Assembly: GCA_013823625.1 (NCBI GenBank)
Contig: PNMM01000001.1
Span: 620,001-684,000, forward strand
Direction: 5' to 3'
Length of the DNA: 64,000 nucleotides
DNA from: Microbacterium sp.
GTDB lineage: Bacteria > Actinomycetota > Actinomycetes > Actinomycetales > Microbacteriaceae
How positions within the stretch are numbered: the first letter of the stretch is position 1; each line of letters starts with the position of its first letter. Below the pieces are notes generated by a model. The model was not told where the DNA came from, searched no databases, and saw only the letters and a list, made by a program, of their open reading frames with translations. The position numbers were made by a program, and so were the translations under genes. Positions 35,558 through 53,255 of the stretch are shown here, one piece after another.

Positions 35558-35560
35558 CTC

Positions 35561-36659: not shown

Positions 36660-36683
36660 TTCGCTAGACGCATCCTCACCTCC

Positions 36684-36781: not shown

Positions 36782-37048
36782 GCCGAGCACGCCACGGCCC
36801 CCACCGCCGCCGACACCAACGTCGCCCGCATCGCCACCCTCTACGCCCACCTGAGCGAGGTAGCCCCGTCGCCCATCGTCGACCTCAACCGAGCGATCGC
36901 CGTGGCGTTTTCTGAGGGCCCGGATGCTGGCCTCGCCCTCATCGACACCCTCCACCTCGACGCGCACCTGGGGGAGTACCACATGCTGCACGCCACGCGC
37001 GCCGACCTGCTGCGCCGCATCGACGAAGCCGGACTCCCGGTCTCCTAA
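36782..37048 (+). pseudogene. ECF sigma factor fragment (C-terminal domain), fused to NYN debris
   Basis: In the frame opened by the duplicated NYN segment lies about 80 residues of the C-terminal helical domain of a SigJ/DUF6596-type sigma factor. The key stretches are IATLYAHLSEVAPSPIVDLN, RAIAVAFSEGPDAGLALID and LGEYHMLHATRADLLRRIDEAG. The sigma-2 and sigma-4 regions are missing completely, and the frame stops just where the family continues with its last helix. That last helix appears 600 bases further on. This is the expected partner of the YCII pair at 35201-35902. Confidence 0.85.
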
Positions 37049-37587: not shown

Positions 37588-37650
37588 GAGGACTTTTCCG
37601 CGGATGCTCCGCCGCGCCATCGGCGGGCCCTCTAGATCGCTCCCTCTCAC

Positions 37651-37719
37651 CCGGAGCGGTGCTTCCTCCAGCGCCGCATCGAAGAAGCTGCCGCCTACAT
37701 CAGAAAGAAACTCGACTAA
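37651..37719 (+). pseudogene. Terminal fragment of the ECF sigma factor
   Basis: Twenty-two codons ending in TAA read PERCFLQRRI-EEAAAYIRKKLD, matching the last helix of SigJ/DUF6596-type sigma factors (consensus ERRFLERRLAE). It would continue the fragment that ends at 37048. The two pieces are separated by the 0.6-kb segment that encodes the membrane-anchored protein on the opposite strand. No start codon or promoter of its own. Confidence 0.75.
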
Positions 37720-37727
37720 CCGGCTGT

Positions 37728-37825
37728 GACTGCCATGCTTGTGCCATGGCCCAGTCCCGAGACCTCATTGCCGTGCTCGTCGACGCCGACAACGTGTCGC
37801 ACTCGAGAATGGGCGCGGTGCTGAC
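37728..37825 (+). repeat. Duplicated 5' end of the NYN gene, copy 2 (intact gene)
   Basis: The second copy of the 98-base repeat described at 36684-36781. Here it is the authentic beginning of the NYN gene, including 18 bases upstream of its ATG. Confidence 0.9.
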
Positions 37826-38480
37826 CGAGGTGGCGCGCTTCGGCACGGCATCCGTCAAGCGGGTTTATGGCGACTGGACCAAGCCGGCCCTCAGCAGCTG
37901 GAAGCCCGTGGCGAGCGAGCACGTCATCCAGCCGATTCAGCAGTTCGCCAACACGGTGGGCAAGAACGCCACCGACAGTGCGCTCATCATCGACGCCATG
38001 GACCTGCTCTACACGAGCCGATTCGACGCGTTCTGCATCGTGTCTTCCGACAGCGACTTCACCCGCCTCGCCTCGCGCATTCGCGAAGAGGGCGTGGCCG
38101 TATATGGCTTCGGTGAGCGCAAGACTCCCGAGGCGTTCAGAAACGCGTGTGACAGGTTCATCTACCTCGACGTGCTGGACGAGCCGACGACGGATGCGGC
38201 AACCGCAGCTCGCCCGCGCGTCACTCCGGCGAAACTCCGCGGCGACTCGAAGCTCATTGGCGGCCTTCGGTCAAGCGTGTCAACCGCCTCGGCCGACGAC
38301 GGCTGGGCCCCACTTTCAGCAGTGGGCTCGCTCATGCGCAAGCAACAACCTGACTTTGACCCGCGCAACTGGGGCTATGCGAAGTTCTCTGAGCTGGTGA
38401 ACGCTACCGACCTGTTCGTGCTCGAAGCGATCCCGTCGGGCGGCATGCGGGTGCAGCACAAGCGCAGGGCCGGCGAATAG
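37746..38480 (+). CDS. NYN-domain ribonuclease-like protein with LOTUS/OST-HTH domain
   Basis: A 244-residue protein. The N-terminal NYN (PIN-like) domain covers residues 5-140. Acidic metal-site residues are seen in VLVDADN (Asp13, Asp15), in ALIIDAMDLLY and in VSSDSDFTRLA, followed by GFGERKTPEAF and FIYLD. The C-terminal 85 residues form an OST-HTH/LOTUS-type winged helix (WAPLSAVGSLMRKQQPDFDP, RNWGYAKFSELVNA) that binds RNA. This NYN-LOTUS pairing (COG0749-independent, Lab/limkain-like) is common in bacteria. It probably acts in RNA turnover; the target is unknown. A truncated copy of its 5' end lies 1044 bases upstream. Confidence 0.92.
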   Translation: MAQSRDLIAVLVDADNVSHSRMGAVLTEVARFGTASVKRVYGDWTKPALSSWKPVASEHVIQPIQQFANTVGKNATDSALIIDAMDLLYTSRFDAFCIVSSDSDFTRLASRIREEGVAVYGFGERKTPEAFRNACDRFIYLDVLDEPTTDAATAARPRVTPAKLRGDSKLIGGLRSSVSTASADDGWAPLSAVGSLMRKQQPDFDPRNWGYAKFSELVNATDLFVLEAIPSGGMRVQHKRRAGE

Positions 38481-38492
38481 CGTTCGCCTCAA

Positions 38493-38957
38493 TCAGGTGT
38501 CGTACCCGTAGCCGTCCCACGGCTCTGAAAACGCAATGCCGTTGCCAGGGTGCAGCTCGACTCGCTCGTATCCGTCCTCGTTGAGGTAGACGAAGCCAAA
38601 CGTGATGCCTTCCCACTCGGCGGCAAAGGGCGCGACCGAGATCGGAGTCAACTCGATGCCGCCCAGTTCGCTCAGCAGCGTTTCGACCATGTCTTCGTCT
38701 GACGCGACGCCCTGGCCTGGCGGGGAGACCGACTCGCGGCTAACGTCGCGCACCTCGAGGCGCTCAAACTCACCCTGGGCGTTCCACACGAATGCGGCCG
38801 CGAAGAACCGCATCTGTCGCACGCCCACGACCTCAAAGAGCTCACTCGTCGCGAACACCTGCAGCCCATCGGGCGTCACCCCCACGTGCTCGGTGTGATA
38901 GTCGTCCGGAACAATCTGAATGCGCTCGGGCCCACCGGCGCTCATCTCCACCACCAT
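38493..38957 (-). CDS. Hypothetical soluble protein
   Basis: A 154-residue acidic protein with predicted alternating strands (VGVRQMRFFAAAFVWNAQGE, FERLEVRDVSRES, GITFGFVYLNEDGYERVELH). It has no signal peptide, membrane segment or recognised motif. The pattern resembles immunity-type or small enzyme-inhibitor folds, but that is a guess. It is convergent with the NYN gene, 12 bases away, and its upstream side borders a sigma-factor remnant. Confidence 0.65.
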   Translation of the reverse strand: MVVEMSAGGPERIQIVPDDYHTEHVGVTPDGLQVFATSELFEVVGVRQMRFFAAAFVWNAQGEFERLEVRDVSRESVSPPGQGVASDEDMVETLLSELGGIELTPISVAPFAAEWEGITFGFVYLNEDGYERVELHPGNGIAFSEPWDGYGYDT

Positions 38958-39000
38958 GCGGCGAGTCTAGTGAGACTCTCTCGACCTTGGCCATGGTGTC

Positions 39001-39113
39001 GATGCGGATGCTCGCCTTGCCCTCATCCACACCCTCCACCTCGGCGCGCACCTGGGGGAGTGACACCTGCTGCACGCCACCCGCGCCGACCTGCGCGGCA
39101 GCTTCGGTCAACC
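39001..39113 (+). pseudogene. Second ECF sigma factor remnant
   Basis: About 95 bases from 39005 match 36921-37014 of the first sigma fragment with roughly 85% identity by eye. The translated remnant is DARLALIHTLHLGAHLGE, a TGA stop, then HLLHATRADLRG. It therefore has an in-frame stop and lacks both ends. It shows that the sigma gene was duplicated before or during the rearrangement and that one copy has decayed further. Confidence 0.8.
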
Positions 39114-39231
39114 GTTGAATTCTCTGCGCATTGAACTCTGCGAAGTTTCGCTGCCGACAAGCAAGTTCGCGACGAATCGCGTCGGGTTTCGCCACTCCAA
39201 GAAGGCGGACGGTTGGCGGTAGCGTCGGTGC

Positions 39232-39918
39232 ATGCCTCGTCAGATGCGTGACCCCGCCTTCAGAAAGGCACAGCACGACCAGCTCCATGAGCCACACATC
39301 GCTCCGATCACTGCGTACGTCGAGCAATTGCGGGCCGATAGTGGGCGCTGGTTGCCTTACGTCGCGCCCCTTCACGGCGGCATAAACGCAAGGCTCTTGA
39401 CCGTGCTTAGGGATCCTGGCCCCAAAGTCCATGAAGTTGGTGGATCAGGCATGCTTTGTGTCGAGAATGATGACCAGACTGCGGAATCGAAGTATTCGCT
39501 CATGCAACAGGCGGGTCTAGCGCCCTCCGACTTCACTCCGTGGAACGCCTATCCCTGGTACATCAACAGTGCGCCAACGCCCGCACAGATCGCTGAAGCC
39601 GCACCGACCCTAGTCGGTCTGATCAATCTCATGCCAGACCTCCAGGCCGTCCTCCTTCACGGGATTCACGCCGCTGACGCATGGCGAGTCGCCCTTTCCA
39701 GCCAATCCGCGCTCCGTGCGCGCAGGCTAGAAGTGTTCGAGACGTATCACCCAAGCAACCAGGCGTTGCGCACGAACGTCCCTGGCGAACGCGAGCGGCG
39801 CAAGCAGCACCGAATCGACACGTGGATCGAGGCCGGAGATTGGCTTCGGGCGGCGGATTCCGCCCGACAGGGTGCACCGGCTGTCAGAGGTCCAGGTCAC
39901 ACTGTTGCGCATGGCTAG
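39232..39918 (+). CDS. Uracil-DNA glycosylase-superfamily-like protein
   Basis: A 228-residue protein that I match to the uracil-DNA glycosylase-like family. The cues are VLRDPGPKVHEVGGSGMLCV, then ENDDQTAESKYSLMQQAG, and the WNAYPWYINSAPTPAQI segment that would form the active-site pocket. A later HGIHAADAWRVAL segment and FETYHPSNQAL take the position of the HP(S/A) motif. Similar proteins are carried in accessory and defence regions, where they may act on modified bases; their activity is largely untested. The stop overlaps the start of a small membrane protein gene. Confidence 0.78.
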   Translation: MPRQMRDPAFRKAQHDQLHEPHIAPITAYVEQLRADSGRWLPYVAPLHGGINARLLTVLRDPGPKVHEVGGSGMLCVENDDQTAESKYSLMQQAGLAPSDFTPWNAYPWYINSAPTPAQIAEAAPTLVGLINLMPDLQAVLLHGIHAADAWRVALSSQSALRARRLEVFETYHPSNQALRTNVPGERERRKQHRIDTWIEAGDWLRAADSARQGAPAVRGPGHTVAHG

Positions 39919-40426
39919 ATGGCTCGGTTCAGTCTTTGCGGCATTCCTGCTTGTGTTGATACCTCAGGGTGCCGCGGCAATGTTCGGCGACCGCATTGTC
40001 GCCCAGTTGCCTTCTGGGTCGGAGGTCGCGACTTTTTTCAACTTCTTGATCGCTTGGCAGTTGACGCCCGACGCTGCAATCTCTTACGTTGCGGCATTTT
40101 TCGGGGTGGTTATGGCTTTGGCGGTGCACTTTCGCTTGCTGTCGCGCGGTGCGTCCGTTCTGGTCGTGGTGTGCTTCAGCACAGGGGTGTGGCTCGCGTT
40201 GACGTATCGCTGGAGCAATCCGATGCCCGTCTCGACCTTCTGGGCTGATCCAGCATTATGGATCATGCTTGCAGGGCTGCTCACTCCTTTCGTGCTGTGG
40301 GGTGCGCATCGTGCTCTCGCCCCGACCCTCCAGAAGTGGCTAGATGCGCTAGCGGAGCGTTTCCTCGACGGCAGAACCCAGCTTGCAGAACCCCTTGACG
40401 AGCAGGCCGAGACGATCCGCAACTGA
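39911..40426 (+). CDS. Four-helix membrane protein coupled to the UDG-like gene
   Basis: A 171-residue protein whose ATG overlaps the end of the preceding gene by eight bases. Hydrophobic segments occur at about 5-27 (LGSVFAAFLLVLIPQGAAA), 55-80 (ISYVAAFFGVVMALAVHF), 83-101 (GASVLVVVCFSTGVWLALTY) and 115-135 (PALWIMLAGLLTPFVLWGA). A charged helical tail of about 35 residues follows. No family is recognised. Its coupling to a putative DNA-acting enzyme recalls effector/sensor pairs with membrane effectors, which is only an inference. Confidence 0.75.
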   Translation: MARWLGSVFAAFLLVLIPQGAAAMFGDRIVAQLPSGSEVATFFNFLIAWQLTPDAAISYVAAFFGVVMALAVHFRLLSRGASVLVVVCFSTGVWLALTYRWSNPMPVSTFWADPALWIMLAGLLTPFVLWGAHRALAPTLQKWLDALAERFLDGRTQLAEPLDEQAETIRN

Positions 40427-40441
40427 AAAAATGCGCGATAG

Positions 40442-41236
40442 CTACTGAGCCAATTGTTGCCTTTGCGCTGGCCAGTAGCCCTCAAGAAACTTCCGATACA
40501 TGACCTGGTTTGGAAAGACGTCGCGCACGTGTGTGCCGACAACATGCTCGAGTTCGATCGCCTCTGCACCGTTGAAGCCCCAACGCTTCTGCCCTGCATC
40601 CCGTTCCATCTGCGACGGAAACCAGTCGTCGATCCGGTACGCACCTCGCACGACCCCGAAAGCGATGCCAAGGCAGTAGAGCGCCCGAGTCCGCACTTCC
40701 GCCCCGACCTTCCAATGCCCGCGGGTGTTGTCGTAGATCTGCTTCGGGTTCATGTCGGCCCGCCACCCGCGTTGCATCTTGACCATGATCACTGGCTGCG
40801 CGATCGTTGGGCACGGCGCGGCACCGTATCGCGCCACGACGGCGGGTAGCGCCGCCAGTCCGAGACGGCCGGAGTCGTGCCCCTTGACCAGGTTCGTCAA
40901 AGAATGCCCGTCGGCCCGAAACGCGTCGATGACAGCCTGTTCGACAGCAAGCGACTCCGCCTCATTGAGCTCGGTCCGCAAGAACAACAGGTCTACCTGG
41001 TGGCCGCTCCCTTCGATCTCATTGATCGTGCGAAGCTTCGCGCGCTCGGAGCTTGGGCCCTTCCCCGCCTCGATCACGTGCGAGTTGATTCGCGCGCCCT
41101 TGCCCTTGCCCACGTAGAAAACTCGGCCGTCGCGTGGGTCGCGCAGTGCATAGACGTAGAACCGAAGCCTCTCTGCAACTTCGTGCGGAATCTGCATTGA
41201 CCGGGCAGCTTCGCCCCGCGCCGCTGAACTGACCAT
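40442..41236 (-). CDS. GIY-YIG-like nuclease domain protein (LEM-3 type)
   Basis: About 264 residues. The ATG at 41236 forms a TGATG stop/start with the upstream gene and is chosen for that reason; MQIPHEVAE at 41197 is an alternative. The N-terminal domain reads RFYVYALRDPRDGRVFYVGK then GKGARINSH, the GIY-YIG pattern of LEM-3-like nucleases, with a Glu in the later helix (LNEAESLAVEQAVID). The C-terminal half (WRADMNPKQIYDNTRGHWKV onward) is a conserved-looking basic domain likely to bind nucleic acid. It is divergent from the restriction-modification operon. Confidence 0.8.
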   Translation of the reverse strand: MVSSAARGEAARSMQIPHEVAERLRFYVYALRDPRDGRVFYVGKGKGARINSHVIEAGKGPSSERAKLRTINEIEGSGHQVDLLFLRTELNEAESLAVEQAVIDAFRADGHSLTNLVKGHDSGRLGLAALPAVVARYGAAPCPTIAQPVIMVKMQRGWRADMNPKQIYDNTRGHWKVGAEVRTRALYCLGIAFGVVRGAYRIDDWFPSQMERDAGQKRWGFNGAEAIELEHVVGTHVRDVFPNQVMYRKFLEGYWPAQRQQLAQ

Positions 41237-41508
41237 CAATTCCCGGAGAGGCCAAGATCGTGGTGGGCCCGGGCGGCGGCGAGTTCAATATGGGCGGCGA
41301 CTGCAGAGGCGAATGCTTGAACGAGCCAGCCCCCGACCAGTAGCCCCAATCCGGCACCGACGAACCCCCAGTCCGGTCCTCCCACGTCCCGGGCAAAGCC
41401 AGCGACAAAGAATGCGAGTGCCCCGAGGATGGTAAGGATCAAGTAGACGACCCCAGCTATCGAGAGCCTGTCTGCAGTCTTGATCGACTTGTCAATGTGT
41501 TGGTTCAT
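41236..41508 (-). CDS. Small membrane protein upstream of the GIY-YIG gene
   Basis: A 90-residue protein. The ATG at 41508 follows AGAGGGGTTGGAC. Two hydrophobic helices (LSIAGVVYLILTILGALAFFVAG and WGFVGAGLGLLVGGWLVQAFA) span the membrane, and the C-terminal helix is amphipathic. The stop overlaps the next start by one base (TGATG). No family is recognised. The pair reads away from hsdM, sharing a 133-base divergent control region with it. Confidence 0.75.
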   Translation of the reverse strand: MNQHIDKSIKTADRLSIAGVVYLILTILGALAFFVAGFARDVGGPDWGFVGAGLGLLVGGWLVQAFASAVAAHIELAAARAHHDLGLSGN

Positions 41509-41591
41509 GTCCAACCCCTCTACTCAATTGTGGGTGTGATGGCGGTTTGGGTAAGTGTGCCGCAATGCTCCGACTGAGAGGAGTCAGACCT

Positions 41592-41607
41592 GGTGAGTAG
41601 GCTCACC
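41592..41607. promoter_or_regulatory. Palindrome in the hsdM / small-operon divergent region
   Basis: GGTGAG-TAGG-CTCACC is a perfect 6-bp inverted repeat 35 bases upstream of hsdM. It is suitable as an operator or a promoter-proximal hairpin. No regulator gene is adjacent, so the binder is unknown. The hsdM ribosome site is ACAGGAG at 41621-41627, about 14 bases before the ATG, a longer spacing than usual. Confidence 0.4.
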
Positions 41608-41641
41608 TCAGACGTCCAATCAACAGGAGCCCTCCTCACCG

Positions 41642-43621
41642 ATGAGCCAGCAGAGCACACCAACCCCCAACCTCTCCGCGTTCATCTGGAGCATCGCAAA
41701 CCTCCTCCGCGGCACCTACAAGCAGGCTGACTACGGCAAGGTCATCCTCCCGTTCACCGTCCTGCGCAGACTCGACGCCGTCCTCGAGCCCACCAAGCAA
41801 GCAGTCCTCGACGAGGCCGCGAAGCTCGCCAACAGCCCCGCCGCCGAGCACGTGCTCCCGACGAAGGCGAAGGCCGACTTCTACAACACCAGCCGCTACA
41901 CCCTCGCGACCATTGCCAACGACCCCGCCAACGTCAAGGCCAACCTCAACGACTACATCAACGGATTCAGCGCAAACGTGCGCGACATCTTCGACCGCTA
42001 CAAGTTCGCCGAGCAGCTCGCCACCCTCGATGAGAACGACCTGCTCTACCTCGTGCTGCAGAAGTTCGCCGAGGTCGACTTGCACCCCGACCGTGTCGAC
42101 AACACGCAGATGGGCTCGATCTTCGAAGAGCTGATCCGCAAGTTCGCGGAGGCCAGCAACGAGACCGCGGGTGAGCACTTCACCCCGCGCGAGGTGGTGA
42201 GGCTGATGGTGAGCCTGCTGTTCACCGAGCATCCCGATGACGACCCCAAGAAGTCGCTCACTGTGCCCGGCGCCGTACGCACCGTCTACGACCCGACGGC
42301 CGGCACCGGCGGCATGCTGAGCGTCAGCGACGAGTACGTGCGCGAGCACTTCCCGCAAGCGAAACTCAGACTGCACGGCCAAGAGCTCAACGCCGAGTCC
42401 TTCGCCATCGCGAAAGCCGACATGGTCATCAAGGGTCAGGCGATCGGCGACATGATCTGGGGCGACACCCTCACCAACGACGGCCACATCGGCAAGACCT
42501 TCGACTTCGGAATCGCGAACCCGCCGTTCGGTGTCGAGTGGAAGAAGCAGCAAAAGCACGTCACCGACGAGCACAACCAGCGAGGCTTCGACGGCCGCTT
42601 CGGCCCCGGCCTGCCGAGGGTCTCCGACGGCTCCCTTCTCTTCCTCCTTCACCTGGTCAGCAAGATGCGCCCCAAGCGTGACGGCGGCGGCCGCGTCGGC
42701 ATCGTGCTCAACGGCAGCCCGCTCTTCACGGGCGGCGCCGGCTCCGGCGAATCGAACATCCGCAAGTACCTGTTCGAGAACGACCTGGTCGATGCGATCA
42801 TCGGCCTGCCGACCGACCTGTTCTACAACACGGGCATCGCCACCTACATCTGGATTCTCGACAACGACAAGCCCGCCAGCCGCCGCGGCCGCGTGCAGCT
42901 CATCGACGCGACCGCGCAGTGGGTGAAGATGCGCAAGTCGCTGGGCAGCAAGCGCCGCGAGATCAGCCCCGAGCAGATCGCCGACATCGTGCGCACCTAC
43001 GGCGAGAACGTCGAGAGCGAGACGAGCAAGATCTTCCGCACCACCGACTTCGGATACACCACCATCACCGTCGAGCGCCCTCTGCAACTGAACTGGGCTT
43101 TCACCGGCGAGCGTCTGTCGCTGGCCCTCGCCGCGAAGCCGCTGGCCGCGCTGAGCGACGAGGCGCGGGCATCGATCGAGCGACTCGCCGAGTCGTCACC
43201 GATCGAGCAGTCGACGGATGCTGATGCCTTCGCCCGCCGCCTCAAACAGCTGTTCGCGGGGGAGTCGGTGAAACTGACCGCGCCCCAGTTGAAGGCGTTG
43301 CTCTCCGGCCTCAGCGAGCGGGACGACACGGCCCCCGTCATCCGCGACACCAAAGGCAATCCGTTGCCTGACACCGACCTGCGCGACACCGAGAACGTGC
43401 CGTTGTCAGAAGACGTCGACGACTACACCGCCCGCGAGATCGCCCCGCACCTCGAGCGCTTCTGGGTCGACCGCAGCAAAGACAAGGTCGGATACGAGAT
43501 TCCCTTCACCCGCCACTTCTACCGGTACGTTCCACCGCGGTCGCTCGACGAGATCGACGCCGACCTCAACAAGCTCATCGCGGAGATCTCTGTCCTTCTT
43601 TCCGAAGTTGAGAAGCGATGA
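41642..43621 (+). CDS. hsdM: Type I restriction-modification DNA methyltransferase subunit
   Basis: A 659-residue N6-adenine methyltransferase. The N-terminal HsdM_N helical domain starts LSAFIWSIANLLRGTYKQAD. SAM motif I is YDPTAGTGGML (216-226) and the catalytic motif IV is NPPFG (293-297). The segment GEHFTPREVVRLMVSLL is characteristic of this type I class. About 150 extra C-terminal residues are helical and likely contact HsdS. The stop overlaps the hsdS start (ATGA). M2S alone methylates, and with HsdR it restricts. Confidence 0.97.
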   Translation: MSQQSTPTPNLSAFIWSIANLLRGTYKQADYGKVILPFTVLRRLDAVLEPTKQAVLDEAAKLANSPAAEHVLPTKAKADFYNTSRYTLATIANDPANVKANLNDYINGFSANVRDIFDRYKFAEQLATLDENDLLYLVLQKFAEVDLHPDRVDNTQMGSIFEELIRKFAEASNETAGEHFTPREVVRLMVSLLFTEHPDDDPKKSLTVPGAVRTVYDPTAGTGGMLSVSDEYVREHFPQAKLRLHGQELNAESFAIAKADMVIKGQAIGDMIWGDTLTNDGHIGKTFDFGIANPPFGVEWKKQQKHVTDEHNQRGFDGRFGPGLPRVSDGSLLFLLHLVSKMRPKRDGGGRVGIVLNGSPLFTGGAGSGESNIRKYLFENDLVDAIIGLPTDLFYNTGIATYIWILDNDKPASRRGRVQLIDATAQWVKMRKSLGSKRREISPEQIADIVRTYGENVESETSKIFRTTDFGYTTITVERPLQLNWAFTGERLSLALAAKPLAALSDEARASIERLAESSPIEQSTDADAFARRLKQLFAGESVKLTAPQLKALLSGLSERDDTAPVIRDTKGNPLPDTDLRDTENVPLSEDVDDYTAREIAPHLERFWVDRSKDKVGYEIPFTRHFYRYVPPRSLDEIDADLNKLIAEISVLLSEVEKR

Positions 43622-44910
43622 AGGTCGACTCCTGGGGTAATCAGCTCGCTAGAGACTGGCGCGTGAGCCGCCTCGCCAGGTACGCGCGAATCTTCGCGGG
43701 TGGCACGCCTGACCGCGAGAATCCCGACTATTGGACTGATGGAGATATTCCTTGGGTGAATTCTGGCTCAGTGAATCAATTCGACATCGTCGAGCCATCC
43801 GAATTGATTACGCAAGCGGCCATGGCGGGAAGTGCCGCCAGGTGGGTGCCAAGAGATGCTCTGCTGGTTGCGCTTGCTGGTCAAGGCAAGACAAAAGGCA
43901 TGGCCGCTCAGCTTCGCATTCGGGCCACCTGCAATCAGTCGATGGCTGCGATCGTTACGGACGATCGGCTTCACGCTCGGTTCTTGCTTTGGTGGTTGAC
44001 CTCGAATTACTCCAATCTTCGCAAGATGGGCGGAGGCGACCTTCGCGACGGTCTAAATCTGCAGCACATCGCCTCGATACCAGTCCCTCTGCCCGCTGTG
44101 GATGAGCAGCGGCGAATCGCGGAGTTCCTCGACCGCGAGACGGCCCAGATCGACGAGTTGATCGCCAAGCAGGAGCGGCTCATCTCCACCCTCTCCGAGC
44201 GCTCCGCGGCTTTCCGTTTCCACCTCACGACCGGAGGTCTTGAGGAACGCCCGCGATCTATAGCCAGCAGTTCACCGTGGTTCCCAGATCTGCCTGAAGA
44301 TTGGGTCATGGCACCCGTGAAGTACCACGCGAGAACCGGTGCGGGAGCGGGCTTCCCGCCCGACGCGCAAGGACTTCTTGACGAGAAGTACCCGTTCCTC
44401 AAGGTCAACGCTTTGAGCAAAGCCGACGATGATGGCGTGATTCGGTGGCAGGAGGACACAGTCTCCCTTGAGATGGCTTCCAAGCTGGGTGCCAAGATCT
44501 ATCCGGCCGGGTCCTGCATCATTGCGAAAATCGGTGCGGCACTGTTAATGGGTCGAGTGAGGCAGTTGTCGGCACCGAGTTGTGTCGACAACAACGTGAT
44601 GGCTCTCATTCCGCAAGGCTCAACGAGCCCAAGATTCCTGTACTACGCCCTGCAGAACCTGCGGCCTGACTGGCTTGTGAATCCCGGAGCCGTTCCGTCC
44701 ACAAGCGAGGGGGCTGTCGGTCGTGTGCGACTTCCCTTCCCTCCAGAAGCTGAACAGATCGCTATAGCCAAGGCCCTCGACGTGTACATGCGAAAAGTGA
44801 TGGCGACCGAGCGAAAGCTTGAAGCAGCTCTGACGGTTCTCCGCGAGCGACGCCAGGCTCTCATCAGTGCGGCCGTGACGGGGCAGATTGACGTGGGAGG
44901 AGCATCCTGA
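43618..44910 (+). CDS. hsdS: Type I restriction-modification specificity subunit
   Basis: A 430-residue protein with two target-recognition domains. TRD1 (about 1-155) has IFAGGTPDRENPDYWTDGDI and PWVNSGSVNQ. The central conserved helix region is PLPAVDEQRRIAEFLDRETA then QIDELIAKQERLI. TRD2 (about 215-370) is followed by the second conserved repeat PPEAEQIAIAKALDVYMRKV and the RRQALISAAVTGQIDV end. The TRDs determine a bipartite recognition sequence that cannot be read from the sequence. TRD1 and the second half are visibly lower in G+C than hsdM, as expected for swapped specificity cassettes. Confidence 0.96.
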   Translation: MKVDSWGNQLARDWRVSRLARYARIFAGGTPDRENPDYWTDGDIPWVNSGSVNQFDIVEPSELITQAAMAGSAARWVPRDALLVALAGQGKTKGMAAQLRIRATCNQSMAAIVTDDRLHARFLLWWLTSNYSNLRKMGGGDLRDGLNLQHIASIPVPLPAVDEQRRIAEFLDRETAQIDELIAKQERLISTLSERSAAFRFHLTTGGLEERPRSIASSSPWFPDLPEDWVMAPVKYHARTGAGAGFPPDAQGLLDEKYPFLKVNALSKADDDGVIRWQEDTVSLEMASKLGAKIYPAGSCIIAKIGAALLMGRVRQLSAPSCVDNNVMALIPQGSTSPRFLYYALQNLRPDWLVNPGAVPSTSEGAVGRVRLPFPPEAEQIAIAKALDVYMRKVMATERKLEAALTVLRERRQALISAAVTGQIDVGGAS

Positions 44911-45767
44911 TGAATGCAACGAAGCGACCGCAGACGATTCAGATCTTCTTGCCGACCGGTGACCCGAATGGGATTCGGCAGGCGGAGATCACGACGCGGT
45001 CCGTGCGGGTGTTCGACGTTCCGCGCAGCGAGCTGAAGCTGTTCACCGAGACGCCTGAGTCGTCGCAGCCCGGGCTCTACTTCTTACTGTCGGACGAGAA
45101 CGGCGACGGTGAGCCGGAGGTGTACATCGGCGAGTCAGACAGCCTGCGCGACCGGCTGAAGAACCACGACTCGAAGCGCACGTGGGATCGCGTGGTGGCG
45201 GCGGTGTCGACATCGAACAGCTGGACCAAGGTGCACGTGCAGTACATGGAGCGCCAGGCGATCTCGCTCGCGAAGGCGGCGGGTGCGCGGCAGCTGGGCA
45301 ACTCGGCGGCCGGCTACACCTCGCACGTCCCGGCGCCGCTCGTGGCTGACTGCGAGGAGTACCTGGAGACGATTCGGGTGCTGGTGTCGACGTTGGGCTT
45401 CTCGTTCATGGAGGTGCCGGCCTCGAAGGAACAAATTGCCGACGCCGAGATTCTCAGCATCTCGGGAACAGAGATGACGGCAACGGGAATCTACTCGAGT
45501 GCTGGCCTGACGGTTTTCGCTGGTTCGCAGGCTGCATTAGTTCGGAAGTCGGAGATCTATCCGCAGATCGAGGCGCGGCAGAGTCGGTTGGTCGAGGCGG
45601 GCGTGCTTGTTGAAAAGGACGGGCACTTCGTCTTCACGCAAGACCATGTATTCAAGACCCCTTCGGGCGCGGCGGACGTCATCTTCGGCCTGAACGCGAA
45701 TGGCTGGGTCAAGTGGCGCACGGCGGATGGGCGCACCCTCGACGAGTTGCTGCGAGCACCCAGCTGA
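44910..45767 (+). CDS. GIY-YIG nuclease protein with DUF4357, inside the R-M operon
   Basis: A 285-residue protein coupled to hsdS by TGATG and a GGGAGGAG ribosome site. Residues about 45-110 form a GIY-YIG-like domain (GLYFLLSDENGDGEPEVYIG then ESDSLRDRL). The last 55 residues are DUF4357-like (GAADVIFGLNANGWVKWRTA then DGRTLDELLR). Proteins of this architecture are frequent accessory genes of type I systems. Whether it adds a nuclease activity, trims modified DNA or regulates restriction is not known. Confidence 0.9.
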   Translation: MNATKRPQTIQIFLPTGDPNGIRQAEITTRSVRVFDVPRSELKLFTETPESSQPGLYFLLSDENGDGEPEVYIGESDSLRDRLKNHDSKRTWDRVVAAVSTSNSWTKVHVQYMERQAISLAKAAGARQLGNSAAGYTSHVPAPLVADCEEYLETIRVLVSTLGFSFMEVPASKEQIADAEILSISGTEMTATGIYSSAGLTVFAGSQAALVRKSEIYPQIEARQSRLVEAGVLVEKDGHFVFTQDHVFKTPSGAADVIFGLNANGWVKWRTADGRTLDELLRAPS

Positions 45768-45966
45768 CTTGTCCTGCGACTCGTTGAGTCGCGGCATGAG
45801 CATCTCTGAAATGGGTTAGCTGCCAGACAACTCTTGAATGGCGCTATTTGCGGCGGGATCCGGTCGGTGAAGTTTCACGATGTCTACCGTGAGTGTCGCT
45901 CGTTCTCGCTACGCTCGCTAGGGAGGTGCAATGCCGCGGCCGGTGCGGCGACACTGAAGGAGCAAC

Positions 45967-48900
45967 GTGGCGATTCACAACGAGAACCCGTTCGAGCGGG
46001 AGATCTGCGAGCACCTCGCTGCGAACGGGTGGCTGTATTCGCCGACCGACCACGAACCCGACGCCGTCTACGACCGCAAGCGGGCTCTGGTTCCTGACGA
46101 TGTGTTTGCGTGGCTTGAAGCCACGCAGCCCGACATGCTCTCCAAGGCCGTGAAGCCCGCGACCGCCGAGCGTGACCGCGAGGCACTGCTCGACCGGCTC
46201 GTGAAGTCGCTCGACGCGCCATTCGAAGCCTCCGGTGGGCAACAAGGCGGAACCCTGGCTGTGCTGCGCCGGGGCTTCACGAGCGTGCCAAACACCTTCC
46301 AGATGGCACAGTTCAAGCCCGCCGACGACCTCAACGCCACGACGAACGCGGCCTACGCCGCAATGCGCTTGCGCGTGATGCGGCAGGTTCACTATTCAGA
46401 GAAGAACCAGAAGTCGATTGACCTCGTGCTGTTCGTCAATGGGTTGCCCGTTGCCACGATCGAGCTCAAGACTGACTTCACGCAGAGCGTGCAACACGCG
46501 ATCGAGCAATACAAGAGCGACCGTGACCCGAAGGGCGAGCCGCTGCTCGGGTTCGGGCGGCGCGCGTTGGTGCACTTTGCGGTCTCGAACCGCGAGGTTC
46601 ACATGGCGACGAAGCTTGAGGGAGCATCCACTCGCTTCTTGCCCTTCAACCAGGGCAACGACGGGCGCGCCGGCAACCCGCTCAACCCCGACGGATCGTC
46701 GACGTCGTACCTGTGGGAGCGCGTGCTGCAGCGGGATGCGTGGCTCAACATCATCGGGCGCTTCATGCACCTGCAGGTGTCGAAGGTTATCGACCCTGTC
46801 ACGGGCTCGGTGGACAAGCGTGAGAACCTGCTGTTCCCGCGCTACCACCAGTGGGAATCGGTGACGCAGCTCATCGAGGCCGCGCGCACCGAGGGACCGG
46901 GGCACAAGTACCTCATTCAGCACTCGGCCGGTTCGGGCAAGACCAATTCGATCGCCTGGACGGCGCATCAGCTCTCGACACTGCATCGACCCGACGGGTC
47001 GAAGGCGTTCGGCTCGGTGATCGTTGTGACAGACCGCACCGTGCTTGACACCCAGCTGCAAGACGCGATCAAGCAGATCGATGCGAAGAGCGGCGTGGTC
47101 GTGGCGATCGATGGCGCGGCATCGGGCTCGAAGTCAGAGAAGCTTGCGGTTGCATTGCAGGCGAAGGCGCCGATCATCGTCGTCACGATTCAGACGTTTG
47201 GCTTCGTCGCCGAGAAGCTCGGCGCACTGCCCGACATGTCGTTCGCGATCATCGCCGACGAGGCGCACTCGTCACAGACCGGCACGACGGCGAACAAGGT
47301 CAAGCAGGTGCTGTCGCCCGACGACGCTGCCGATCTCGACGACGGGGGAGAGGTCTCGATCGAGAGCCTGCTCGCCCTGCAGATGGAAGCCCGCGCCAAC
47401 GCGACCAACATCTCGTACTTCGCCTACACAGCCACGCCGAAGGCGAAGACGCTCGAGCTTTTCGGCCGCAAGAACGCCGACGGGCTGCCGGCGCCCTTCC
47501 ACCTCTACACGATGCAGCAGGCCATCGAAGAGCGCTTCATTCTTGACGTGCTGCAGAACTACACCCCGTACAAGGTCGCGTTCAAGCTCGCGCACGAGGG
47601 TCAGGAGTACGACGCGGATGCCCCGCTCGTCGATCGCTCGGCCGCGGTCAAGCAGCTCATGAACTGGGTGAAGCTGCACGAGTTCAACATCAGCCAAAAG
47701 GTGCGCATCATCGTTGAGCACTACCGCTCGAACGTCGCCTGGCGACTTGACGGCAAGGCGAAGGCGATGGTCGTCACCGGATCGCGCAAAGAGGCCGTGC
47801 GCTACAAGCTCGCCTTCGATGCCTACGTGACTGAGATGGGCTACACCGACGTGCGCGCGCTCGTGGCGTTCAGCGGCGAGGTCGACGACCCCGAGTCGGG
47901 GCCCGAGCGCTTCACCGAAACGACGATGAACCCACGGCTCAAGGGCCGCTCTCTCGCGAAGGCGTTCGAGACCGACGAGTTTCAGGTCATGCTCGTCGCC
48001 AATAAGTTTCAGACCGGGTTCGACCAGCCTCTTCTCGTCGCGATGTACGTCGACAAGAAGCTGTCGGGTGTCACCGCAGTGCAGACCCTGTCGCGACTCA
48101 ACCGCATCGCGACGGGCAAAGACTTCACGTGTGTGCTCGACTTCGTCAACGACCCCGAAGTCATTCGCGAATCGTTCGAGCCTTACTTCCGCGATGCTCG
48201 CTTGAGTGACGTGAGCGACCCCAACTTTGTCGTCGACCTGCGCGGAAAGCTCGACGCATATGGCATCTGGGAGTGGCACGAGGTCGAAGCAGCCACCCGC
48301 GCGCAGCTGGAGTCGACGAAGACGGGCAAGGGCAACAACGCTTACTTCTCGGCTATCGAGCCGGGGCGTAGTCGGTTCGTCACTCGGCTCACCACCGCAC
48401 TTGCTGATCACGACGCTGCAGAGGCCGAGAAGCTCTACCTCTTCCGCTCAGACCTCACGTCGTTCGTCAATGCCTACGACTTTCTGTCGCAGGTCATCAA
48501 CTTCGAAAACACCGACCTCGAGAAGCTCAGCATCTACGCGCGAGGCCTCGCTCGCCTCATCCGTGAGGAAAACCTGCGCGTACCGATCGACCTTTCTGGA
48601 GTCGAGCTCGTCAGTTACTCCATCAAGAAGCTTCCGGATGCTGACCTCGGCCTCGACGGAGGCGCCGAGATCGACCCGCCCGCCACCGGCACAAAGCCTC
48701 CCCGCGACCCCGAACTCGTGCGGCTCGAGGAGGCAGTGGAGCAACTGAACCAGCTCTTCGACTCGCCCGACCTCACGGCTGCCGACATGGTGGGCGTAAT
48801 CACCCACGTGAAGGGCAAGGTCGCCGAGAACGAGAAGATTCAGGTTCAGCGCGTTGCCAACTCTGAGAAGCAGTTCCTCGCCAGTCCCGACCTTGCCACG

Positions 48901-49038
48901 GCCGTCGTCACCGCCATCGTGGCTGTGCGTGAGAACAACGCCACCATGGCTGACGAACTCTTCGGCGACGAGCAGAAGTTGGCGCAGTTCGTCTCTGTGA
49001 TTGGGAAGTTGCTCTACCGCGGAGGTGAGGCCGCGTGA
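45967..49038 (+). CDS. hsdR: Type I restriction endonuclease subunit
   Basis: A 1023-residue motor-nuclease. The nuclease core is Asp152 in SIDLVLFVNGLPVATIELK with Glu166 and Lys168 (D...ExK), followed by the QxxxY-like helix AIEQYKSD. Walker A is HSAGSGKT (Lys325) and motif II is DEAH (431-434), then helicase motifs SYFAYTATPKAKTLELF and VANKFQTGFDQPLLVAM. The C-terminal helical domain binds the methylase. The GTG follows GAAGGAGCAAC. A 199-base gap before it holds only a short hairpin (CGACTCGTTGAGTCG), so hsdR may have its own promoter. Confidence 0.96.
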   Translation: MAIHNENPFEREICEHLAANGWLYSPTDHEPDAVYDRKRALVPDDVFAWLEATQPDMLSKAVKPATAERDREALLDRLVKSLDAPFEASGGQQGGTLAVLRRGFTSVPNTFQMAQFKPADDLNATTNAAYAAMRLRVMRQVHYSEKNQKSIDLVLFVNGLPVATIELKTDFTQSVQHAIEQYKSDRDPKGEPLLGFGRRALVHFAVSNREVHMATKLEGASTRFLPFNQGNDGRAGNPLNPDGSSTSYLWERVLQRDAWLNIIGRFMHLQVSKVIDPVTGSVDKRENLLFPRYHQWESVTQLIEAARTEGPGHKYLIQHSAGSGKTNSIAWTAHQLSTLHRPDGSKAFGSVIVVTDRTVLDTQLQDAIKQIDAKSGVVVAIDGAASGSKSEKLAVALQAKAPIIVVTIQTFGFVAEKLGALPDMSFAIIADEAHSSQTGTTANKVKQVLSPDDAADLDDGGEVSIESLLALQMEARANATNISYFAYTATPKAKTLELFGRKNADGLPAPFHLYTMQQAIEERFILDVLQNYTPYKVAFKLAHEGQEYDADAPLVDRSAAVKQLMNWVKLHEFNISQKVRIIVEHYRSNVAWRLDGKAKAMVVTGSRKEAVRYKLAFDAYVTEMGYTDVRALVAFSGEVDDPESGPERFTETTMNPRLKGRSLAKAFETDEFQVMLVANKFQTGFDQPLLVAMYVDKKLSGVTAVQTLSRLNRIATGKDFTCVLDFVNDPEVIRESFEPYFRDARLSDVSDPNFVVDLRGKLDAYGIWEWHEVEAATRAQLESTKTGKGNNAYFSAIEPGRSRFVTRLTTALADHDAAEAEKLYLFRSDLTSFVNAYDFLSQVINFENTDLEKLSIYARGLARLIREENLRVPIDLSGVELVSYSIKKLPDADLGLDGGAEIDPPATGTKPPRDPELVRLEEAVEQLNQLFDSPDLTAADMVGVITHVKGKVAENEKIQVQRVANSEKQFLASPDLATAVVTAIVAVRENNATMADELFGDEQKLAQFVSVIGKLLYRGGEAA

Positions 49039-49273
49039 CAGAGCGGCAACACCCTGGTCGTGGCACCAGCTCACCCATCCTGAGACAAGGTGGGCATCCC
49101 TAGACATCGCCTTCGCAAATGTGCTGGGCTCGCGTTGCTTGAGTGGCGCTCAGGAGATGAGGCGTGCAATGATGCATTCTCACGAAAAGTCCACTGACCT
49201 TGGTGGACCGAGGGGTGCATCGTTGTTCTCAGTGTCCTGTTGACCAGTAACCCCGGAAAGTGGAGGTTCGTGA

Positions 49274-50665
49274 ATGAAGCAACTGACGCTCGAAGCGGAA
49301 GCTACGCGGGAACAACTTAGGGGATTACATGAGCTAATCCTTGACGAAGTTGAAGGGGTTGCTCTCAGCCTTGAGGCGCCGTCGAAGTACTCTGGGGTTC
49401 AGGAACTTCAGTACACCGCCCTGCTTCAAGCTGTCATTACTTGGTCAAGCAAGGGAAGCGCCCCCAAACTGCTTCTGGACCCAGATTGGGTTGATGATCC
49501 GAAGCGTCTGATGCTTGAGTCGGATCTGCATCTTGTTGCACTCACGGTTGCCGAGTATGTCAACGATGTGCACCGCTCGAATCTCGGAGAAGTATTCGAA
49601 GAAGCATTGAACCACTGTCTTCAAGCGCGGAACGCAATCGTTCAGCTTTCGCCAGAGCCGGGTGTTCGATCAATCGTGCTGGCGAGTCACCTGACGAAGT
49701 ACTCAATTAGCCCCGATCTGCATGTCATCAGCGGATTGGAGCCTGTGATCGACGAAAACTGCAGAACGCTCTATCACGACATCTGGCGATCGTCTGATGA
49801 CTCTCGTTCGCTTCGGAAAGCCGTTCTCGCTAACGATGAAATCGAGATGCCGCTTGGAGACGAACGGCCAAGTCATGTCACTCGACTCAAGTGGCCGAGG
49901 GCCCATCCACTTTCAGTTCAGGAAGAGCCGTTTGTGCCTCTCATCGCAAGAGCGGTAAGGCCAAGGGGTTATGCCAGGGATGTTTATCGCAGACGCCTCA
50001 CTTATCCGGAAATGGCACTTAGTGGGTTAGGTTCAGTCCTCTTTGAAATAGTTCAGAACACTCAATGGCACGCACTCGGGCCGGGAAGATCTGCCTCTAT
50101 TCGTGGTTGCCGAGTTATACGTTTCAAGGAGGAGACATACTCGGCGGAAAGCATCGAAAATATAGCGTCGTCAAATGTCCTCAAGGACTATCTTCGAAGT
50201 ACGTTAGCTGTGCCCGAGCAGTATGAGATGGGCAAGGCAGACGGAGTCACGGTCGCAGTCGTTTCAGTGATCGACCATGGAATTGGGCTAGCTGCTTCCG
50301 CCGCCAAGGCCCTTAACGAGAATTCACCGGGTTCTGAGGACGAAGAAATCGGCTACCTCATGAAAGCCTTGAATAGACAGTTCAAGGTTTCGAGCCGGCC
50401 ACTAGGGAACATCGGGCTTCCTCTAGTGCAACAACTTTTGACGAATCTCGACGGGTTCATGTCGATAAGGACAGGCCGGACGGAGATTTCAAGGGACTTC
50501 ATCAAGACCCGCCTCGAGCTTAAGGATATCGCGGAGAGCGGGTCTCGACCAATGAGGTTTGTTGAATGGGTTCCCCCAAGCCTTAACGAGTTCTCTGTGG
50601 GTGATCGCGCCGGAGCAGCGGTGACATTCATGATGCCAGTCGAATACTCAATGGAGCGGAATTGA
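49274..50665 (+). CDS. GHKL-type (histidine-kinase-like) ATPase, first gene of a putative two-gene system
   Basis: A 463-residue protein. The ATG follows GTGGAGG with good spacing. Residues 1-235 form an unrecognised helical domain. A Bergerat-fold ATPase follows: N-box LFEIVQNTQWHA (256-267), G1 box VIDHGIGLA (332-340, DxGxG-like), G2 box RPLGNIGLPLVQQ (375-387) and a closing strand GAAVTFMMPV. There is no dimerisation/phospho-His domain, so it is more like MutL/MORC/Hsp90-class ATPases than a sensor kinase. The stop overlaps the next start (TTGA). The DNA is clearly less G+C-rich than the flanking core genes. Function is unknown; a defence role is inferred from context. Confidence 0.85.
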   Translation: MKQLTLEAEATREQLRGLHELILDEVEGVALSLEAPSKYSGVQELQYTALLQAVITWSSKGSAPKLLLDPDWVDDPKRLMLESDLHLVALTVAEYVNDVHRSNLGEVFEEALNHCLQARNAIVQLSPEPGVRSIVLASHLTKYSISPDLHVISGLEPVIDENCRTLYHDIWRSSDDSRSLRKAVLANDEIEMPLGDERPSHVTRLKWPRAHPLSVQEEPFVPLIARAVRPRGYARDVYRRRLTYPEMALSGLGSVLFEIVQNTQWHALGPGRSASIRGCRVIRFKEETYSAESIENIASSNVLKDYLRSTLAVPEQYEMGKADGVTVAVVSVIDHGIGLAASAAKALNENSPGSEDEEIGYLMKALNRQFKVSSRPLGNIGLPLVQQLLTNLDGFMSIRTGRTEISRDFIKTRLELKDIAESGSRPMRFVEWVPPSLNEFSVGDRAGAAVTFMMPVEYSMERN

Positions 50666-53097
50666 GCACTGTTTCTTATGTTGACGAGGAATGTTTCGTT
50701 TTCGTCTCTGACATCACGCAACTCAACGGCCTGGAGCGGTCGGTTGCGCTCTACTGGGCGTATCGCAACATTGACGCTCAGAGTTTCCTAGCTGTCGTCG
50801 ACCGAACTGTAGCTGCTCGGCTGGAGGTCTCCGAGATTTGGGTTGTCGTTCCGATGGACATGCTCGAACAAGTGCGCGCAATAACGCAGAGCATCGAGTA
50901 TGTGATGCAGGCAGAGAGATTTGATCAATGCTTTAGGTTCTTCCTGGTGAATGAGCAAGGGCACTGGGTTGAGGTCGAAGAGCTCAGAAGCGGACCAGAT
51001 GTAACCCCATTCATGGACGGGCACCGACAGTTTTTGGCTGCCGATGGCCTTCGGCAGGCATTCCGTGACACCGCCGGACTAGCTTTCGCGGGCGCGGGAT
51101 TTCATTTTCGGCACCCCAATGGCTCCCACTCGCTTGGCTTCCTTCGTGGCTCGCAGGCAGTGGCCCGTTCTCAACATGCTTACTTTGCGGCCATGGCTTT
51201 ATTGTCAGTCATAAAGATTCCCAAATCTGCGTGGTTCTGGTGTGACACTGCAGGTATCTCTACTGTTGTTTATGCCCTTGACGACCTGTGTCGTCGATTC
51301 GGGCGTCCATTCGCTTTCCGAATTGACAGCTTTTCCGGGTACGACGGCCTTGACGGAATTCGTGGCTCTAGGGCATCAATCGTTGTTCTAATATCAAGCA
51401 CTATGTCAGGGGGTCTTGGGTCTTTGGCTCTGAAAGAACTGGACCTTCCATCCTCGCGCTTGGTGAACCTGTTCGCATTGCGTGAAGAACCGTTCGACGA
51501 AAGATCTGGACTCGTACTCTGCGACCTGACTAACAGAGATAAAGCTCCGCTGCCGTCCATCAGAGACGCCCGAATTGTTCCTCCTCCGCGTTTTTCCACT
51601 TTGGGAGTCGATGTCTGCAAGTACTGTGACGATGGTGTTGGACTGATTGAGCTCGAAGGAGAAGGCTTCTTTCCGCGCGCGCAGCAATTGAGCCTGCGCA
51701 TGCTCGTTCGTAATGACCGTCCGTGGAGCGAAGAAAAGGGCCCCAGACCTATAGGCGGCTTTGATGGCGACGAATACTTCACATCCTTCTATGGCCTCGA
51801 TGCAATTGTTCCCGCTTTTTCTCAGGTAGCCCACGACACAACCTTGGAGTTTTCGCACCTCCTGGACGGTGCCAAGTCGTCTGCGCCCATAGCTTCAGCA
51901 ATCGCCGCCGATATTGAGAAACTCAAAGAGGGCCGTACCTTCAAGGTCGTGGTCGGGATGGCCGATGAACAGTCGAAGTCACTTGCGCGCTTCGCGGCTT
52001 CTCGATTGGGTCGAGACCTCAAGGCCTACGCGGGTGGACGAGTCTGGACTGACGCGCCACTCCCAGCGGAGTCTTCACTTGACGAGGTACTCGAACACTT
52101 TCCGGAGTCGACTGACGCAATGCTCTGCGCAGCGGCAATCTCTTCGGGGCGAGTTCTGCTGGCTGAAAGCAGAAAGTTCCGGGCCCATCCAAACCTGAAG
52201 TGGAGCTACCTCATTGGCGCGGTACACCCGGAATCTCCGCAAGCATGGGATGTCTTTTGCCGAACCCTCGGCGTGCAAAGCCATAGCGTGAACGCAACCC
52301 TTCGGGCCACGTGGATGCTTACGCGCGAGCCTCGGCCCGTGGGCGTCCCCAACGCTTGGGGCATGGAGTCGACCTTCTTGCGATGGCTTGCCTTACAGGA
52401 AACGTGGGGCGTCGGTGGCACACCCTTCGAACTCTCGGATCGTGAGCGAAAGGCGATCGAGGCGCGGCTGGAGTACCTGGGGACTGGGCCGATGGTCGGG
52501 CTGATGGCTTCTCCTACCGGAAGCCCGATTCCTACCCTTAGTCCGATGTTTGCACTCTGGCCGTTCGAGTGGAGCAAGCATGAGAGGACTACCAACCCCG
52601 ACGATCAGCCGACGGAGGCTGAGGTGTACGCGACAATCGCGCACTTAATGACTGAGTCGCGTCGTGTCCGAGTCGACATGAGTGGCGGCGGGTTCTGGAT
52701 GCGTCGGCACGAAAGCGCGTTGAACCCGGCTGTTTTCGATCGACTAAACGACCCGATAGTCCAAGCATGTATTTTGCGAGCCGCGCGCGAGGGCGAGCTT
52801 GATTACAGAAGCGATCCATCGGCGAGTAGAGCGATGGCTGGAGTGCTTCTTCACGCGTTCGAAGAAGTTGATCGCCCAGGAGGCGCAGCGAGCTACGAGT
52901 TTGCTCTCGCTCTCGCTATCGGAGCGACAAATCCCAAGTACGGCGGATTGCGACTCACAGACAACGACGTTTTTGCGACCCTTCGTCACGCGAATGAAAG
53001 ACGAGCAGGCAGAGAGTGGCCCTCGTTGCTCAGCGCAATGTTGGGCTTCATTGATTGGAAGCTGCAAAGGGCCAATAGTTCTGTTCGTATCGCTTAG
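50662..53097 (+). CDS. Large protein with two phosphoribosyltransferase-like motifs, partner of the GHKL ATPase
   Basis: An 811-residue protein started by TTG in a TTGA overlap with GGAG upstream. Residues about 190-260 look like a phosphoribosyltransferase fold: WFWCDTAGISTVVYALDDLC, then the PRPP-loop-like VVLISSTMSGGLGSLALK (241-258), where the usual acidic pair is missing. A CxxC knuckle (CKYC, 319-322) follows. A second similar loop is at about 486-505 (DAMLCAAAISSGRVLLAES). The C-terminal 250 residues are helical. I recognise no named family. It may bind PRPP or a nucleotide as sensor or effector; that is inference. Confidence 0.82.
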   Translation: MSTVSYVDEECFVFVSDITQLNGLERSVALYWAYRNIDAQSFLAVVDRTVAARLEVSEIWVVVPMDMLEQVRAITQSIEYVMQAERFDQCFRFFLVNEQGHWVEVEELRSGPDVTPFMDGHRQFLAADGLRQAFRDTAGLAFAGAGFHFRHPNGSHSLGFLRGSQAVARSQHAYFAAMALLSVIKIPKSAWFWCDTAGISTVVYALDDLCRRFGRPFAFRIDSFSGYDGLDGIRGSRASIVVLISSTMSGGLGSLALKELDLPSSRLVNLFALREEPFDERSGLVLCDLTNRDKAPLPSIRDARIVPPPRFSTLGVDVCKYCDDGVGLIELEGEGFFPRAQQLSLRMLVRNDRPWSEEKGPRPIGGFDGDEYFTSFYGLDAIVPAFSQVAHDTTLEFSHLLDGAKSSAPIASAIAADIEKLKEGRTFKVVVGMADEQSKSLARFAASRLGRDLKAYAGGRVWTDAPLPAESSLDEVLEHFPESTDAMLCAAAISSGRVLLAESRKFRAHPNLKWSYLIGAVHPESPQAWDVFCRTLGVQSHSVNATLRATWMLTREPRPVGVPNAWGMESTFLRWLALQETWGVGGTPFELSDRERKAIEARLEYLGTGPMVGLMASPTGSPIPTLSPMFALWPFEWSKHERTTNPDDQPTEAEVYATIAHLMTESRRVRVDMSGGGFWMRRHESALNPAVFDRLNDPIVQACILRAAREGELDYRSDPSASRAMAGVLLHAFEEVDRPGGAASYEFALALAIGATNPKYGGLRLTDNDVFATLRHANERRAGREWPSLLSAMLGFIDWKLQRANSSVRIA

Positions 53098-53255
53098 CGC
53101 GTTGCACACACTGCTCGGCGAGATCGACGCCGCGATGCTCGCGAGCTGGATGATGCAGATCACCTCGCGGCCGGGGTTGGGCGGCGCGCGGCGGTAGGCA
53201 CTCCGCGCGGCGTGCGCGCAGCATCCGGAATCCGCCAGCGCACTAGAGTCGCCGC

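Follow-up and report, generated by a model that had tools for sequence, protein, structure and literature searches.

The window analysed in this work is a stretch of 64,000 nucleotides from Microbacterium sp. (contig PNMM01000001.1, positions 620,001 to 684,000), and coordinates are counted from its first letter. Two adjacent genes in this window, designated A and B, are read here as one horizontally acquired conflict module that is most likely anti-phage, in which A would act as a switch and B as an effector. The probability of this reading is estimated at roughly 0.42. A defence role of the pair is likely, and the mechanism is one that we infer. The pair itself, the overlap of its genes, the folds predicted for A and for the second lobe of B, the loss of the catalytic acids in B, and the mobile or defence context are directly supported. 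The two genes are as follows.

49274..50665, + strand: gene A, 463 amino acids, ATG start, predicted GHKL ATPase, PADLOC-DB PDC-M65A (4.8e-15)
50662..53097, + strand: gene B, 811 amino acids, TTG start, predicted two-lobed phosphoribosyltransferase (PRTase)-like protein, PADLOC-DB PDC-M65B (1.7e-46)

Each window protein acquired exactly one match in PADLOC-DB v2.0.0 at E-values of up to 1, namely PDC-M65A for A and PDC-M65B for B. All five further pairs that were searched (from Rhizobium, Pseudomonas, Microbacterium, Pseudoalteromonas, and a Chitinophagaceae bin) also match these two models best (E-values of 1.9e-23 to 1.7e-264), and their side matches to DrmD (0.00096) and Csx23 (0.0071) are both weak. 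The window copy scores far more weakly than the pair of locus L060, which reaches 4.3e-136 and 1.7e-264. Judged by these matches, the window pair is a divergent member of PDC-M65, a catalogued two-gene phage-defence candidate. The original prediction had proposed a candidate new defence system; the pair is not new in the strict sense since PADLOC-DB already lists it, and its standing as a defence candidate is strengthened by that listing and by neighbours that are often defence or mobile genes.

The name PDC-M65 and the pairing of a PRTase with a GHKL gate, or its logic, were found in no paper, where subscription papers and preprints were largely outside the reach of the search. The only paper found to contain both GHKL and PRTase is PMC7824862, and in the accessible parts of that source they are present in separate contexts. 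The PHROGs search with eight proteins returned nothing for A or B of the window. Among the other proteins, phrog_3364 (function unknown) matches A of L049 (1.3e-8) and weakly A of L060 (0.0079), and phrog_2358 weakly matches B of L060 (0.0081).

The gene pair and its relatives

The frames, the coordinates, and the overlap of both genes were confirmed on the sequence. The stop of A and the start of B share four nucleotides (TTGA). Both starts are preceded by purine-rich ribosome sites, GGAGG at 7 nucleotides ahead of the ATG of A and GGAG at 5 nucleotides ahead of the TTG of B. Around the pair, sites resembling promoters or terminators are no more numerous than in shuffled sequences. The frames are not a chance artefact, because frames of 463 and 811 codons have homologues in six phyla, as judged by the titles of the records. 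The low guanine plus cytosine (G+C) content that had been noticed for the pair also stands: it is 55.0%, compared with 67.4% and 67.8% in the core parts of the window on either side, where the minimum over 178 sliding core windows of 3.8 kb is 65.8%. The placement of the pair between hsdR and core genes holds as well, with the hsdR side ending at 49038 and the right flank beginning at about 53219.

The relatives were recruited through one signature of B, which narrows the sample; A played no part in the recruitment. The scan of species genomes with the B alignment turned up 134 relatives, and the 80 best of these were used together with one viral contig. The scan of genome contigs with a single B sequence found nothing. 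Seven plasmid records match window B and 11 match the Pseudoalteromonas B. Judged by their record titles, the 80 loci belong to Pseudomonadota (41), Bacteroidota (33), and four other phyla (one each), with two unassigned. Some of the relatives are metagenome bins.

In 84 of the 88 loci an A frame immediately precedes B, so the genes that had been predicted to be coupled do occur as a pair. Three of the other four loci begin at a contig edge, and the remaining one (L088) has an N-truncated B. The genes overlap in 61 of the 84 A-B loci, and 32 of these overlaps measure exactly 4 nucleotides. The distance matrices of A and B correlate with r = 0.95 across 74 pairs, compared with at most 0.09 in 500 shuffles. 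A and B therefore travel as one unit, given their matching distances and their adjacency.

Several loci deviate in their anatomy or location. The Spirosoma locus carries a separate short frame between A and B (L004:9549-9965) that replaces the N-terminal ~135 residues of B, as if the N-terminal domain of B were detachable or frameshifted there. A is split over two frames in L023 and L036. Maribacter aquimaris carries the pair twice, on separate contigs (L056 and L057). The pair is also carried by a contig filed as viral in IMG/VR (L091:1222-4681), so phage or prophage may move it. The Pantoea pair was unmatched at the DNA level in E. coli genomes, and the Pseudoalteromonas B was unmatched in phage records.

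Predicted folds of proteins A and B

The features of protein A are as follows.

50006..50650, + strand: predicted GHKL (Bergerat) ATPase domain, residues ~245-459
50045..50059, + strand: N-box E258..N262, identical in 73/73 relatives
50273..50287, + strand: G1-box D334-x-G336-x-G338, identical in 73/73 relatives
50408..50419, + strand: G2-box N379-I-G381-L382, with Asn instead of the first Gly in the window copy alone

A is a GHKL/Bergerat ATPase by its predicted fold and by its N-, G1-, and G2-boxes. The three boxes that had been noticed in A were borne out in the 73 aligned relatives, all of which keep G381-L382 and E258, the residue four positions ahead of N262 that we take to be the catalytic Glu of GHKL ATPases. 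The exception is the first Gly of the G2-box, which is found in all 73 relatives and is Asn379 in the window. The top structural match of A is the anti-sigma factor SpoIIAB. A resembles the SpoIIAB/histidine-kinase branch and is predicted to carry an alpha/beta N-terminal domain of its own. SpoIIAB is an ATP-dependent switch, and STAS proteins are the partners of SpoIIAB-type kinases.

No phospho-acceptor (HisKA-type) domain was found by Pfam in window A or in the 14 Pfam families matched by 74 A members, in agreement with the earlier observation that A lacks one, and Pfam gave no other effector domain in A. A STAS identity was tried for the N-terminal domain of A and for the lobes of B, and profile comparison did not support it. 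A STAS-domain gene is present at 61650-62033, 8.5 kb to the right of the pair and outside the island.

Protein B is predicted to begin with an N-terminal domain, followed by two PRTase-like lobes and a helical domain at the C-terminus. Its features are as follows.

51067..51531, + strand: first PRTase-like domain, residues ~136-290, by topology and a weak internal repeat only
51388..51411, + strand: loop 1 LISSTMSG (243-250), S245 invariant, no acids
51616..51627, + strand: CxxC, C319 and C322, both Cys in 68/79 B proteins
51727..52326, + strand: predicted second PRTase-fold domain, residues ~356-555
52126..52149, + strand: loop 2 CAAAISSG (489-496), catalytic acid pair absent
52741..52779, + strand: C-terminal signature R694-x-N-D-(G/P)-x-(I/V)-Q-A-x-x-x-R706, conserved more strongly than any other stretch in the family

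The second lobe of B is clearly predicted to have a type I PRTase fold, and its structural matches include the pyrimidine-type (orotate phosphoribosyltransferase, OPRT) fold and the PRTase-fold regulator PyrR. The first lobe is predicted to have the PRTase strand order, and the hhalign comparison of lobe 1 with lobe 2 gave an E-value of 0.0087 at a probability of 4.6%. The first lobe is PRTase-like only in its predicted topology and by a weak repeat. The PRTase fold that had been suggested for B therefore holds structurally for the domain of the second loop, but for the domain of the first loop it comes down to topology and the weak repeat. The CxxC knuckle described earlier was recovered as listed.

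In PRTases, whose fold usually serves enzymes of nucleotide synthesis, a pair of acidic residues lies just ahead of the phosphate-binding turn of the phosphoribosyl pyrophosphate (PRPP) motif. The corresponding positions in window B are I244-S245 and A490-A491, and acids at these positions are found in none of the 79 B proteins, either in loop 1 or in loop 2. The 28 real PRTases used for comparison, which were selected by a motif filter, carry ED or DD there. The conserved loop regions of B span residues 241-253 and 489-500. Loop 1 is rich in serine: S245 is present in 79/79 and S249 in 77/79 B proteins. The two PRPP-loop-like motifs of the original prediction are thus present and conserved with a topological likeness, but they are not canonical. 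Ordinary phosphoribosyl transfer is unlikely given the absence of the acid pair from both loops, which weakens the proposal that B acts on PRPP, and ligand binding or other chemistry appears more likely for B. The strongest conservation in B lies not in the loops but in the C-terminal signature RxNDGxxQAxxxR (694-706), where R694, N696, D697, Q701, A702, and R706 are kept in 78/78 relatives.

The island and the neighbouring genes

The pair is located in a variable island that also carries a type I restriction-modification (R-M) operon. The island and the other genes described in it are as follows.

33704..53218: variable island with the pair, from tRNA-Pro to the core genes
41642..49038, + strand: type I R-M operon (hsdM, hsdS, DUF4357/GIY-YIG-like gene, hsdR), context outside the module
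33901-35070, - strand: PIN-domain gene with helix-turn-helix partner, toxin-antitoxin-like, common to congener G493
37659-38480: NYN nuclease and OST-HTH/LOTUS fusion, RNA-directed architecture
39232-39918: uracil-DNA glycosylase superfamily, weak match (2e-6)
40442-41239, - strand: LEM-3-like GIY-YIG protein just ahead of the R-M operon
44910-45767: DUF4357 gene with weak GIY-YIG signal, between hsdS and hsdR

The tRNA-Pro (GGG) ends at 33703, the tRNA-Pro and the island together span 33629-53218, and the core sequence on the right starts at about 53219. Where both ends could be read on one contig, which was the case for 12 congeners, the tRNA-Pro and the right flank lie ~9.6 to 48 kb apart. 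This interval was compared, whole or in part, in nine congeners, two of which (G491 and G492) carry other type I R-M genes there, with HsdM at 26% and 29% identity. The site that the pair occupies is therefore variable, and several species have defence genes there. B is found in one of 26 genus genomes, which is that of the window itself. This genome was also the sole match when 396 phylum genomes were searched with the PADLOC model, a sampling in which the Microbacterium relative L086 was not seen.

No direct repeat of the 3' end of the tRNA-Pro was found in the window, and no attachment site is therefore claimed. In two congeners (G398:C54:2698-2756 and G488:C1:1197768-1197817), the 3' half of the tRNA-Pro gene occurs a second time farther into the stretch, as would be expected of attachment-site duplications.

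The loci of the relatives were surveyed with models built from them, and type I R-M genes were identified in 14 of the 88 loci (HsdR in 13 and HsdM in 10), where L072 and L080 are near-copies. In the 50-genome subset, HsdR is present in six loci (L017, L037, L063, L073, L077, and L087, two of which score only 73 bits) whereas 90 PF18766 matches in 248.3 Mb would predict 0.39 for the 1.07 Mb of the 50 loci; this comparison is rough as the two counts come from different models. The immediate neighbours comprise 140 genes of at least 100 amino acids, taken from the 88 loci after removal of seven that were near-copies or contig ends. Among the matches listed for them are HsdR (4), HsdS (4), ThyX (3), recombinases, AAA_21/AAA_15, and Schlafen. 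Qat genes lie beside the P. aeruginosa plasmid pair, TIR genes lie near one Rhizobium pair, and the Pantoea pair has a metabolic setting. The survey of neighbours thus often gave defence or mobile genes, as had been expected, but many immediate neighbours are not defence genes.

The thymidylate synthase gene thyX adjoins the pair in six of the eight Rhizobiales loci. It lies just upstream in the same direction in L006, L010, L011, L013, and L016 (Rhizobium/Mesorhizobium) and just downstream in L014 (Bosea), and it is absent from L018 and from L012, whose locus starts at the edge of a contig. All four genomes with a thyX pair that were searched also have thyA, and the thyX beside the pair is their sole thyX, except for one weak partial match in one of them. 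One of the thyX plasmids carries dgt on the other side of the pair. In the tree, four thyX loci and L015, which lacks thyX, make up one clade; two plasmid relatives with thyX are outside the tree.

Proposed mechanism, alternatives, and known systems

In the proposed mechanism, the translationally coupled A and B would form a complex in which the ATP state of A would hold B silent. Infection would change the nucleotide state or the partner of A and so free B. The freed B would bind, and then alter or hydrolyse, a nucleotide or phosphoribosyl compound, with the pyrimidine/thymidylate pool as the favoured target, and its lobes would keep a phosphate-loop-like turn though the PRPP acid pair is lost. 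This action would stop the growth of both phage and cell. A more specific version, in which the acid-less doubled PRTase fold under its GHKL gate would be a guard of the pyrimidine/thymidylate pool or an unconventional nucleotide hydrolase, and the extra thyX of Rhizobiales (flavin adenine dinucleotide-dependent) would serve as self-protection or bypass, is regarded as unlikely.

Several findings weigh against the reading of the pair as a gated anti-phage module. The lost acids speak against ordinary PRTase chemistry. Pfam and NCBIfam gave no match for A or B of the window, and Pfam gave scattered single matches only among 55 B members, including one to Pribosyltran at 0.063 that was not counted. 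The hhalign comparison of the B lobes with the 28 real PRTases, which come from 12 genomes, gave no significant match (best probability 3.5%); structure prediction is therefore the sole source of the PRTase claim for B. Only one of 873 Foldseek matches of B reaches an E-value of 0.001 or lower, and it is a poor superposition. The PDB sequence searches gave nothing with the single window proteins and chance-level matches only with profiles. The profile search that had been suggested for both proteins thus yielded one PADLOC-DB model each but no link between B and real PRTases. Many immediate neighbours fall outside defence, such as malate:quinone oxidoreductase, glycine dehydrogenase, and diguanylate cyclases. 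The gene thyX is confined to one clade, and the thymidylate link is a hint and not a rule of the family. The window copy departs from otherwise invariant residues, including in B P698 and A742 in place of a near-universal G and E. Finally, phage defence by the pair, toxicity of B, and binding between A and B are all predictions.

The order of events could be reversed, with the B lobes sensing a nucleotide, as PRTase-fold regulators do, and the gain or loss of this ligand switching A, a SpoIIAB-like kinase/ATPase that would then act on a target in the cell or on the serine-rich loop of B. The complete loss of the acid pair is what ligand sensing would predict, and PyrR among the matches of B, SpoIIAB as the best match of A, and the conserved S245 and S249 of loop 1 all fit this order. 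It is nevertheless judged unlikely, as profile comparison showed no STAS or other phospho-acceptor in A or B, Pfam showed no other effector domain in A, and conservation in B peaks at the C-terminal signature and not in the loops. A toxin-antitoxin or addiction module that stabilises mobile islands and plasmids instead of a dedicated anti-phage system, with A as the antitoxin, would agree with the coupling of the two genes, with their presence on plasmids and in variable islands, and with the toxin-antitoxin precedents of the DprA-PRTase systems (PMC9122126, in its accessible part). A simple antitoxin would have no need of a large ATPase with conserved catalytic boxes, however, and type I R-M genes are enriched nearby, so this explanation is improbable. 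A nucleotide-metabolism or regulatory operon outside any conflict is very unlikely: the OPRT-type fold match, thyX in one clade, and housekeeping neighbours in many loci would suit it, but the distribution is patchy to the point that the window's own genome stands alone among the 26 genus and 396 phylum genomes, and the plasmid and island locations and the defence neighbours also speak against it.

Partial decay or variation within a lineage may account for the state of the window copy. Its end branch, at 2.19, is the longest of the tree, and its A carries V329 and A365 in place of a near-universal E and C in addition to N379. These changes, with P698 and A742 in B, would be expected of a decaying remnant of a PDC-M65 module. 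Such decay is quite improbable, as both long frames are open, the start/stop overlap and the ribosome sites are intact, and N262, D334, G381, R694, N696, D697, Q701, and R706 are kept. The other actinobacterial member, L086 of Microbacterium, keeps the Gly of the G2-box and shares P698, G226, and A365 with the window copy, which suggests a lineage variant.

The reading of the pair as an anti-phage switch and effector would give a candidate that has so far carried a catalogue number a testable anatomy, namely a GHKL switch, an acid-less PRTase-like protein, one dominant C-terminal signature, and a link to thymidylate synthase. It also corrects an easy mistake, which is to read PRTase-like loops as PRPP chemistry. 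If the reading is true, defence would gain a mechanism that works on the nucleotide pool and is gated in a new way. Because members occur across Pseudomonadota and Bacteroidota, any result would carry far.

The PDC-M65 catalogue entry consists of a name only. Among the known systems, the DprA-PRTase systems (ShosTA and kin) are described in the accessible part of PMC9122126 as two genes with one PRTase domain and a toxin-antitoxin or defence role. The likeness lies in the two genes, one of which has a PRTase domain; the difference lies in the partner, as A has a predicted GHKL fold and not DprA. A and B also have no match to such families in PADLOC-DB, which presumably holds models for them. 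The type III retrons use a PRTase-type effector in defence (PMC12548924, in its accessible part), which B resembles, whereas B is two-lobed and acid-less. No reverse transcriptase was found among the 18 neighbouring window genes on both sides of the pair that were scanned with Pfam. SpoIIAB is similar to A as its best structural match. In the Shedu variant VcSduA, an N-terminal GHKL ATPase has been proposed to control the effector in phage defence, according to the accessible part of PMC12137116. VcSduA is a single protein with a PD-(D/E)xK nuclease, in contrast to the two proteins and the predicted PRTase fold found here. A switch and effector mechanism is therefore reasonable for A and B in view of these published PRTase-effector and GHKL-gated precedents.

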